From Halobacillus sp. Marseille-P3879 (GTDB lineage: Bacteria; Bacillota; Bacilli; Bacillales; Halobacillaceae), in contig NZ_OESS01000001.1 of assembly GCF_900240285.1 (NCBI RefSeq), positions 1,364,001 to 1,428,000 on the forward strand: DNA of 64,000 nucleotides, written 5' to 3'. The notes beneath the pieces are model-generated. The model was not told the origin of the DNA. It searched no databases and saw only the letters and a list, made by a program, of their open reading frames with translations. Below are positions 3,157 to 7,118 of the stretch, piece after piece. The position numbers and the translations under genes were made by a program. Each line of letters starts with the position of its first letter. Position 1 is the first letter of the stretch.

Positions 3157-4539
3157 ATGAGAAAGTTTTACACAGCAGCATTTACAACTCTACTCGTAGC
3201 TGGCACTCTGCTTTCGCCATTAAAAGCAGATGCCAATTCAGAATTAGACGAAGTACGTGAAGAACTCGATGAATTGCAGGAAGAACAAGGCAGTGTAGAC
3301 GAAAAGAAAAATGAAGTTTCCGACGATAAAAGCAGTACAGAAAAAGAAATTGCTGAAAATGAGAAGGAACAAGATGAAACTGAACAGCAGATGGAAGAGA
3401 TAGACAACCAGTTAAGTGAAACGCAGGAGAAGCTGCGTGTAAAAGAGGAAGAAATTGCTGAAACAGAAGATGAGATTGAACAGCTTAAAGCAGATATTGC
3501 TGATTTAAAGCAAAGAATTGAAGAACGTGAAGAGCTTTTGACTGAACGTCTCCGTGCCCTTCAAAAAAGTGGCGGAGATGTTCAATACTTAGAAGTACTA
3601 ATGGGTTCACAAAGCTTTGGTGATTTCTTAGATCGAGCTTCTGCTGTTACGACCATCATGGATCAGGATAAAGACATTATGGATACCCACATGGAAGAGA
3701 AACAGCTTCTTGAGGAAAAACAAGTAGAAGTTGAGCAGAAGATGGAAGAATTAGAGAAGCAGAAAGCTGACTTAGAGGGAATTAAGGCAGACCTTGATCA
3801 GCAAATGGCGGAAAAAGAAGAACTAATGGAAGAATTAGAAACACACGAAGAAGAACTACATGATCATAAGATGGCGCTGGAAGAGGAAGAAGAACTTCTT
3901 CAGAGCCAGGAAGCATCGATTCAAGAAGCAATGAAAAATGCGGAAAATGAAGAAGCTAATATTCAAGCGGAAATTGAACGTCAAAAAGAATTAGAAAAGC
4001 AGCGTGAAGAAGAACTACAGAAACAAAAGGAAGAAGAAGCAAAACAGGAAGAACAGACTTCCGGCAGCAGTGCAAGTGCTTCTAGCAGCTCAGAAAGCGC
4101 GTCAACGAGCAGTTCTGCAGCTTCTGTTCCAAAACCGACATCAAGCGGTAAGTTCATGCGTCCTGCAAGTGGTCCGGTAACTTCAGAGATGGGAGCCCGC
4201 TGGGGAACTACTCATGCTGGAATTGACATTGGTGGTAATGGTACTCCGATTGTTGCTGCCGCTTCAGGAGAAGTGTTAAGATCCTATTATTCTAGTTCTT
4301 ATGGTAATGTAGTATACATTACTCACTACATTGATGGACAAGTCTTTACTACCGTATACGCTCATATGCAGAACCGTGAAGTAAGTTCAGGAGATTCTGT
4401 GACCAAAGGACAGCAGCTGGGCCGTATGGGGAACACAGGCCAATCAACTGGTCCTCATCTTCACTTTGAGGTTCACGAAGGAGCCTGGAATGCGGATAAG
4501 AGTAATGCTGTTAATCCTAGAAACCATGTAAACTTTTAA
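3157..4539 (+). CDS. Secreted coiled-coil M23 peptidase, probable FtsEX-activated murein hydrolase
   Basis: 460 residues. Signal peptide about 1-27 (cleavage after ADA), a very long Glu/Lys/Gln-rich coiled coil (about 30-295), a Ser/Ala linker (about 300-330), and a C-terminal LytM/M23 domain with metal-binding His353 and Asp357 (THAGID) and HLH at 434-436. The zinc ligands are intact, so it is probably an active endopeptidase rather than a degenerate activator like E. coli EnvC. The coiled coil plus hydrolase plan and position directly after ftsX resemble the PcsB/CwlO/EnvC partners of FtsEX. B. subtilis has no such gene here. It ends at a strong terminator, so ftsE-ftsX-M23 looks like one operon. 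Confidence 0.92.
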   Translation: MRKFYTAAFTTLLVAGTLLSPLKADANSELDEVREELDELQEEQGSVDEKKNEVSDDKSSTEKEIAENEKEQDETEQQMEEIDNQLSETQEKLRVKEEEIAETEDEIEQLKADIADLKQRIEEREELLTERLRALQKSGGDVQYLEVLMGSQSFGDFLDRASAVTTIMDQDKDIMDTHMEEKQLLEEKQVEVEQKMEELEKQKADLEGIKADLDQQMAEKEELMEELETHEEELHDHKMALEEEEELLQSQEASIQEAMKNAENEEANIQAEIERQKELEKQREEELQKQKEEEAKQEEQTSGSSASASSSSESASTSSSAASVPKPTSSGKFMRPASGPVTSEMGARWGTTHAGIDIGGNGTPIVAAASGEVLRSYYSSSYGNVVYITHYIDGQVFTTVYAHMQNREVSSGDSVTKGQQLGRMGNTGQSTGPHLHFEVHEGAWNADKSNAVNPRNHVNF

Positions 4540-4563
4540 CCGAATAATTTAATAGTATGCCAG

Positions 4564-4594
4564 GCCGTCGAGAAAGTCTCGACGGCTTTATTTG
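4564..4594 (+). terminator. Terminator of the ftsEX operon
   Basis: Perfect 10-bp GC-rich stem (4564-4573 with 4577-4586), 3-nt loop, then tttattt. Confidence 0.88.
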
Positions 4595-4600
4595 TTTTCG

Positions 4601-4744
4601 ACAAGGCCGGTGAGCCTCTAGTTATTATGGTGTATTTAAAACTCGTTGACTGGCTTTGTAGGCTGGGCGTTTAAAGTCAGCGTTTATATCTTCACTGAAT
4701 TGTTCTTTTTCTTAGTAGCCACTTGCTTTTTTATTTGGTATAAA
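4601..4744 (+). other. Short open hydrophobic remnant upstream of the copper pseudogene
   Basis: After a stop near 4636 one frame reads about 33 residues (TGFVGWAFKVSVYIFTE...FFIWYK) before a stop at about 4745. It has no start codon or RBS. It looks like a fragment of a membrane protein and is probably further debris from the same decaying locus; origin not identified. Confidence 0.35.
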
Positions 4745-4747
4745 TAA

Positions 4748-5530
4748 AGTAGATTCTTTACCCAAGAGAGACATTGGCACAGGGTTAAGTTCCCTATAAC
4801 AGCGGGAGCTCATACTCATTTAGAAAGCTCCTCACCTGAAGCCGGGGACACCGTGACCGAGGAAAATCCTCAAATTACGTTGACTTGGTATGCTTTTATT
4901 GAATGGTTTACTTTCTTTGCTATAGGCTGTATTGTCCTGCTTTCATTTACAGGTATGTTTATGAGCTTTTCACTAACTGAAAGTGTGGTTTCATCGTGGA
5001 CCTTACCGTATGGACAGGCTTTGTTAATCAAGTACCTGCTTTTTTTGATTCTGCTTGTTTTTGCTTTTATTAATGGATTTTTAATCAGACAAAAAGTAAA
5101 AAACAACCCTCACTTTTCTCCACGTCCCTGGTGGAAAGCTGAGAGTGCAATTGTCCTGGCAATCTTCAGTATAACTGGTTTTATGACTGAGCAGGAGCCT
5201 CCTCATAACTTGGAGCCGACATAAAATAGGGAGGGGGCTTCGGTCCTCTTCCGGACATTTAGTTCAGTTGGCGTTAATCAGGATTTGTTGTTACGTCCTA
5301 ACCTGATTGGTTTGTTTTTTATTGGGTTATCCATGTTATTTTTACTTTTAACGCTTTTTCTATTTGTAAAGCAAGAAACCGTCGGGGGAGTCCTGTTCAT
5401 GAGTGGAATCACTATTGTCAGTTTATATATGGGGCTTATGAACAGTTTGGAAAGTATGCAGGAGGCTGCAATAACACCAGCATTTCTCGTCTTCGGACAT
5501 GCTATAATAAATTGTGGCATAAGTTTATAA
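4748..5530 (+). pseudogene. Decayed CopC-CopD (YcnJ-type) copper-transport gene
   Basis: One frame carries three pieces of a CopC-CopD protein. 4808-4885 encodes a mature CopC start (AHTHLESSSPEAGDTVTEE...ITLTW) but no signal peptide or start codon lies upstream, and a stop sits at 4745. It runs directly into a CopD C-terminal half (WTLPYGQALLIKYLLFLILL, FSITGFM, EPPHNLEPT), so most of CopC and the first CopD helices are missing. A TAA at 5222-5224 then interrupts the same frame, which continues open (EGASVLF at 5231-5251) through the last two CopD-like helices to 5530. The two open stretches (from GTG 4853 and TTG 5285) are not independent genes. The active family handles copper at the membrane; this copy should be non-functional. 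Confidence 0.75.
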
Positions 5531-5618: not shown

Positions 5619-7118
5619 ATGAATGTAAGGACACGTTTCGTCGCGATCATAGTGGTGCTTGCTGTTCTCATAGGGGCCGCCGGGTCGTATGTCGGAATGC
5701 AATACTTCGGGACGACATCAGATGATAATTCCGATCAAACTGCCAATGCTGATCAGGAAGCAGAGAATTTTGCAAGTTTATCCGAGGATGAGCAAAAAGA
5801 ATTCATTGAAGGATTGTCGAATGGCGCAGACATAGAAAAAGTTGAACAGGCCTATAACGTTATTCAGGAAAACTCCTTAATCGAAGCTGATAAAAGTCAG
5901 TTGGTTGAAGGAGCTATTGAAGGTATGCTTGAAACTTTGGACGATCCTTATAGTACTTATATGGATAAAGAAACAATGGAAGAGTTTGATCAGTCGATAG
6001 AATCGTCCTTTCAAGGAATTGGTGCCGAGGTCAGCATGGTCAATGAGAAAGTTACTGTAGTCGCACCTATTAAAGGCTCTCCTGCCGAAGAAGCTGGATT
6101 AAAGCCGAATGATCAAATTCTGGAAGTAGATGGAGAAAGTGTAGAAGGTTTAGACTTATATGATGCGGTATCGAAAATCCGCGGGGAAAAAGGAACTGAG
6201 GTTACATTAACTGTAGAACGTCCAGGTTCCAGCGAACCATTAACAGTTGATTTAGTAAGAGATGACATACCTCTTGAAACAGTATATACCGATACAAAAA
6301 CGATAGATGGGAATAAAGCTGGCGTGATTGAAATTACTTCATTCTCAAAAGAAACGTCTAAGGAGTTTGAGGAGGCGTTAACTGAGCTTGAAGGTGAAGA
6401 TATTGATGGACTCGTAATTGACGTGCGTGGAAACCCTGGAGGGCTTTTTACTGACGTTCAAGACATTCTTGAAGAGTTTATTACAGATGACCAGCCATAT
6501 GTCCAAATTGAAGATAGTGAAGGGGAAGTTACGGAATATGCTTCTGAGTTAAAAGAAAAGAAGGATTACCCAATAACTATTCTGCAGGATGAAGGAAGTG
6601 CTTCTGCTTCTGAGATTTTATCAGCAGCGATGAATGAGGCAGGGGGATATGATATAGTTGGTACGAAAAGCTTTGGAAAAGGTACCGTTCAACAGACGAT
6701 TCCAATGGGAGATGGCAGTACGATTAAGCTCACTCTTTATAAATGGTTAACACCTGAAGGGAACTGGATACACGAGGAAGGTATTGAACCTACTGTTGAA
6801 GTAGAGCAGCCGGAATACTTTTATACCAACCCTGTTGAGATCGAAGAAACATTATCTTATGATGAAAATAATGAGCAGATTGAAAACGTACAGATTATGC
6901 TTAAAGGATTAGGATACGATCCAGGTCGAACTGATGGTTATTTCAGTAAAGAAACACAAAACGCTGTTTCTGAGTTTCAAGCTTCTGAAGGAATGAAGGA
7001 GACAGGAGAAGTAAATGAAGAAACAGGTGGAAAAATTCAAGAGTTAATTGTTGAAGAAGTTCGCAGCGAAGAAAATGACCGTCAGATGGAGAAAGCATTC
7101 GAGGTCTTGTTCAATTAA
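5619..7118 (+). CDS. ctpB: C-terminal processing serine protease CtpB (S41)
   Basis: 499 residues from ATG 5619; the GTG at 5610 overlaps the RBS agaaggg (5604-5610), so ATG is preferred. N-terminal signal anchor (about 5-25), PDZ domain (about 90-180), S41 protease core with Ser329 (GSASASE), Lys354 (FGKG) and Gln358, spaced exactly as the B. subtilis S309/K334/Q338 triad, and a C-terminal peptidoglycan-binding domain (QIMLKGLGYDPGRTDGYFS). In B. subtilis CtpB is secreted into the intermembrane space of the sporangium and cleaves SpoIVFA to trigger pro-sigma-K processing. Located between ftsX and minJ, as in relatives. Confidence 0.93.
   Translation: MNVRTRFVAIIVVLAVLIGAAGSYVGMQYFGTTSDDNSDQTANADQEAENFASLSEDEQKEFIEGLSNGADIEKVEQAYNVIQENSLIEADKSQLVEGAIEGMLETLDDPYSTYMDKETMEEFDQSIESSFQGIGAEVSMVNEKVTVVAPIKGSPAEEAGLKPNDQILEVDGESVEGLDLYDAVSKIRGEKGTEVTLTVERPGSSEPLTVDLVRDDIPLETVYTDTKTIDGNKAGVIEITSFSKETSKEFEEALTELEGEDIDGLVIDVRGNPGGLFTDVQDILEEFITDDQPYVQIEDSEGEVTEYASELKEKKDYPITILQDEGSASASEILSAAMNEAGGYDIVGTKSFGKGTVQQTIPMGDGSTIKLTLYKWLTPEGNWIHEEGIEPTVEVEQPEYFYTNPVEIEETLSYDENNEQIENVQIMLKGLGYDPGRTDGYFSKETQNAVSEFQASEGMKETGEVNEETGGKIQELIVEEVRSEENDRQMEKAFEVLFN

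Follow-up and report, generated by a model that had tools for sequence, protein, structure and literature searches.

Positions 4748-5530 of the window, the 64,000-nucleotide stretch of Halobacillus sp. Marseille-P3879 analyzed here (contig NZ_OESS01000001.1, positions 1,364,001 to 1,428,000), raise the question of whether this DNA encodes two small membrane proteins or is what remains of a larger locus. When translated on the + strand, the region reads in a single frame from the start of a mature CopC (AHTHLESSSPEAGDTVTEENPQITLT), jumps into CopD (WYAFIEWFTF...), meets a TAA codon at 5222-5224 and then stays open in the same frame for another 101 codons, as the first-pass annotation had described. 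That annotation had also warned that separate ORF calling would turn the locus into two small proteins, and mechanical calling on the + strand returned exactly these, at 4853-5224 (GTG start, 123 aa) and 5285-5530 (TTG start, 81 aa). The ORF list contained no in-frame start 5' of GTG 4853 within the frame 4748-5530.

The translation was compared to Pfam, to NCBIfam and to the proteins of a relative, Halobacillus sp. A5 (genome G009; A5 below). Pfam CopD (PF05425) matched 4748-5221 with an E value of 1.1e-15 (58.4 bits, cut-off 32.1) and the ORF 4853-5224 with an E value of 5.2e-16. Residues 22-47 of the frame (26 residues) scored 17.5 bits against Pfam CopC (PF04234), under the cut-off of 23.3, and the segment 3' of the TAA had no Pfam match above any cut-off. 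Neither the remnant nor A5's intact CopC and CopD came up to the corresponding equivalog cut-offs of NCBIfam, and the family names used here therefore rest on Pfam. The match to the A5 CopD protein spans the TAA (E 6.4e-77, 58% identity), and the segment beyond it is collinear with A5 CopD (42.6% identity over 94 codons, E 7e-18). The resemblance to CopC and CopD is not due to chance. Three adjoining + strand segments were delimited: a copC remnant at 4790-4885, comprising the end of the signal peptide and the first strand of mature CopC (from the translation, the ORF list, the sub-cut-off PF04234 match and by-eye comparison with intact relatives); a pre-stop copD remnant carrying the PF05425 domain at 4886-5221; and a post-stop copD remnant, the 3' part with a shifted tail, at 5225-5530. 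These matches leave next to no probability that the locus holds two separate, conserved genes for short membrane proteins. ORF calling does yield two ORFs, but a single gene accounts for both, which align to it collinearly and without a change of frame across the stop, rather than to separate families; the post-stop part belongs to no Pfam family above cut-off; and none of the other 10 Halobacillus genomes compared was seen to have the two-short-ORF form.

The slot occupied by the locus was defined by its neighbors. On the left lies an envC-like gene (3157-4539, + strand; PcsB coiled coil and peptidase M23; PF24568, E 2.3e-30, and PF01551, E 2.4e-29), and on the right lies ctpB, encoding an S41 protease (5619-7118, + strand; PF03572, E 4.6e-49, and PF22694, E 3.3e-25). 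The site had been placed between ftsEX and ctpB; ctpB is indeed the right neighbor, while the left neighbor is the envC-like gene, as it also is in A5, G001, G002 and G010. A hairpin resembling an intrinsic terminator, with a T-rich tail, follows the envC-like gene at 4561-4590 (+ strand) and contains an inverted repeat at 4565-4585, of which 0.00 were expected in 100 shuffles. Similar copies of this hairpin occur at 10 other places in the same genome and in other genomes of the family, and A5 and G001 carry different hairpins 3' of the envC-like gene. A promoter-like -10 region, TGGTATAAATAAAGTA, at 4736-4751 (+ strand) is a putative promoter retained from the lost copC; by eye, a similar motif precedes copC in A5, G002, G003, G004 and G020, and is also present in a remnant in G001.

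The genus sample comprised 11 genomes including that of the window, so that 10 others were compared at this site. An intact copy was sought here in relatives, and intact copC and copD were found between the envC-like gene and ctpB in three of the 10 (A5, G002 and G010), with a remnant in one more, which supports the proposed loss of CopC/CopD by internal deletion and nonsense mutation. In all three the pair stands as two genes, and the earlier description of a fusion gene thus does not hold: the fused frame is a product of the deletion. A5 has its copC-copD in the same slot as the window remnant, and its CopD shares 81/112 residues with the remnant before the stop and 37/78 after it; unlike the window, A5 is intact.

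The lesions were mapped by comparison to A5, in which copC and copD overlap by 4 bases, ATGA (copC end 994, copD start 991), CopC is 211 codons long from the first start or 191 from an internal ATG, and CopD is 381 aa long. The window is without about 944 bases of A5 (L055 3431-4374; computed by hand from the positions as 4375 minus 3431). Through this deletion the greater part of CopC and the initial part of CopD are gone, and what flanks them reads as one continuous frame, with the junction at 4885-4886 (+ strand). Judged by this alignment, the single "fusion" frame was created by the deletion of about 944 bases, which may have arisen by ordinary illegitimate recombination or slippage; the visible overlap at the junction is at most 2-3 bases. 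By-eye comparison with A5, G002, G003, G004 and G020 indicated that the start codon is absent as well, together with most of the signal peptide. With the start codon lost, the first in-frame start is GTG 4853, inside the former mature CopC. The TAA at 5222-5224 (+ strand) is a nonsense codon in copD at a position where a residue is present in all five intact relatives aligned, and by eye the 3' tail of copD runs in a different frame from that of A5, G002 and G010. The deletion and nonsense codon listed in the first-pass annotation are both real, and to that incomplete list the loss of the start and of most of the signal peptide has to be added. The locus has neither a complete CopC domain behind a signal peptide nor an uninterrupted CopD frame (the first part is missing and the TAA interrupts the rest), several disabling lesions have accumulated (start and signal loss, deletion, TAA, shifted tail), and an intact orthologue stands at the same place in A5, G002 and G010. 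We are thus highly confident that 4748-5530 is a recently inactivated copC-copD pair, a pseudogene.

The functional meaning of the lesions was examined in an alignment of five intact CopD proteins, four from the genus (A5, G002, G010 and G004) and one from the family (G020). Four histidines are invariant in the five, at positions 131, 144, 147 and 220 in A5 numbering. In the window the first three of these fall within the deletion and Tyr replaces His 220, so that the conserved histidines are all missing. The deleted part contains 36 of the 102 CopD positions that are invariant among these five relatives; inside the remnant, 60 of the 66 invariant positions are kept. Given the missing parts, the remnant is predicted to be unable to work as the known transporter; it would yield no copper-transport protein, and its remaining codons would now be drifting. 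The TAA could in principle be a sequencing error in a locus that codes for one 260-codon CopC-CopD fusion, a single codon being involved and the frame being open on either side. This is highly improbable: with or without the TAA the locus lacks its start, the greater part of the signal peptide, the initial part of CopD and all four invariant histidines, and the fusion product would therefore be dead as a transporter.

Selection on the remnant was assessed with a codon model fitted to the remnant and the five intact relatives. Omega was 0.048 on the window branch against a background of 0.115, which does not differ significantly from a single shared omega of 0.1 (lnL -2987.34 vs -2988.63). An omega of 1 on the whole window branch was rejected at a cost of 9.0 log units (lnL -2996.30 vs -2987.34), and the likelihood profile placed the upper limit of the window-branch omega between 0.10 and 0.15. 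On the control A5 branch omega was 0.081, and omega 1 was rejected there too. For the pre-stop segment alone the free omega was 0.018, with no relaxation and no excess of amino-acid changes; the post-stop segment did not discriminate between omega 1 and background (lnL -1355.31 and -1355.52, vs -1355.20). From the rejection of omega 1 and the low limit on omega it follows that the locus was a working gene for the greater part of the time since its split from A5. The remaining codons look constrained on the window branch, and therefore the loss, described as recent in the first-pass annotation, probably is recent relative to the split from A5; the low omega and the single stop agree with this, with silent sites near saturation. 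One stop stands beside 203 codons, the expected number being 2.5 for every 0.1 neutral substitutions per site. The timing is coarse because silent sites are near saturation, the window-branch dS ranging from 0.5 to 3 depending on the model. No relaxation of selection after the loss was measurable, as is expected if the loss is recent.

Two of these figures, the 60/66 kept positions and the pre-stop omega of 0.018, count against the pseudogene reading in that they also fit a short protein still under selection. Under such an explanation the ORF 4853-5224 would be a surviving mini-membrane protein, a piece of CopD that continues to be produced and kept by selection, and it is in agreement with this that 123 codons are open from a GTG, that the CopD domain match of this ORF is strong and that the pre-stop window branch carries no excess amino-acid changes. 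The GTG, however, lies within what was once mature CopC, the gene has lost its native start and the greater part of its signal peptide, three invariant histidines are deleted and the fourth is replaced, no such short form was seen in any of the other 10 Halobacillus genomes compared, and a recent loss accounts equally for the low omega. Because the start and the histidines are missing, a still-selected short protein is judged very unlikely, and the region is treated below as the remnant of a recently inactivated copC-copD pair.

A second remnant is present at the same site in G001 (L056 4293-4450). As in the window, copCD is lost between the envC-like gene and ctpB, and the promoter-like motif and the 3' end of copD remain; the deletion is larger than in the window, and of the pair only the copD 3' end (33 codons, 48% identity to the window) is left. 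The relationships of the genomes were determined from 11 neighboring genes in 7 genomes, using all codon positions, positions 1+2 and proteins as data sets. All three data sets gave ((window, A5), G001), followed by G002/G010, and in the AU test the only two alternative placings of window, A5 and G001 were both rejected (p at most 0.0094). Because A5, the sister to the window, is intact, the copCD losses in the window and in G001 at this site are best read, on this tree, as independent. At 5497-5530, towards the 3' end of copD, an A-rich run in the window and in the G001 remnant contains one base more than in A5, G002 and G010. This shared base was considered as a sign of one common loss; on the tree it would instead be a repeated event in an A-rich run.

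CopC and CopD were then surveyed across the genus. At least one intact-looking CopD was found in six of the 11 genomes and none in the other five. G004 has an open copC-copD pair elsewhere in its genome. G003 has an open copC elsewhere in its genome followed by about 11 copD codons (L080 2142-2782); this copD match is weak alone (E 0.13) and was accepted because of its position behind copC, which suggests that copD was lost and copC kept in this genome. G005 carries another broken copy, a copD of a more distant type spread over three frames (L083 2002-3148). Neither CopC nor CopD was found in G006, which may never have had CopD. The CopD proteins of G007 and G008 are more distant (31-36%) and lie in long open frames, and the TAA inside one CopD match in each is the end of the open frame; the second CopD copy of G007 has a divergent tail. 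The traces of CopD loss in the genus thus comprise a deletion with a nonsense codon, a larger deletion, loss of copD with copC kept, and frameshifts, with no trace in one genome. We raise as a tentative and rather doubtful possibility that Halobacillus is losing CopCD copper import repeatedly, perhaps because it carries a cost or can be spared in their saline habitats.

In the window's own genome no further CopD or CopC was detected at an E value of 0.001. The YcnI family (PF07987) was matched in none of the 11 genus genomes, and the B. subtilis control was matched. Three genes of the metal-repressor family PF02583, to which CsoR belongs, remain in this genome. The YcnJ/CopCD parent family is already well known, and 4748-5530 is a case of ordinary bacterial gene loss; a literature search combining Halobacillus, pseudogene and copper returned nothing that looked relevant. 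Recognition of the remnant guards against mis-annotation of the locus as two "small membrane proteins" and documents that the one CopC/CopD pair found in this genome was lost, probably recently. If repeated loss is true, Halobacillus would offer a small natural set in which to ask under what conditions a high-affinity copper importer can be dispensed with.

The copper-uptake role ascribed to the pair rests on analogy to B. subtilis YcnJ and E. coli YebZ. According to one report, YcnJ has a role in copper uptake as a copper importer, it requires the CopC copper ligand H24 and the CopD histidine H295, and H295 is conserved in E. coli YebZ (PMC13344008). Like the intact pair of the relatives, YcnJ contains CopC and CopD domains; unlike that pair, it is one CopC-CopD-YtkA fusion, encoded in ycnKJI with YcnI (PMC13344008). 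The remnant itself differs in having lost all four histidines (0/4 kept) that are invariant among the CopD proteins of its relatives. E. coli YobA/YebZ are annotated as separate CopC-like and CopD genes. H131, H144 and H147 of A5 CopD align with H135, H151 and H154 of YebZ, which has Ala at the position of A5 H220; the three aligned histidines are thus present in YebZ, in contrast to the window, where they are deleted.
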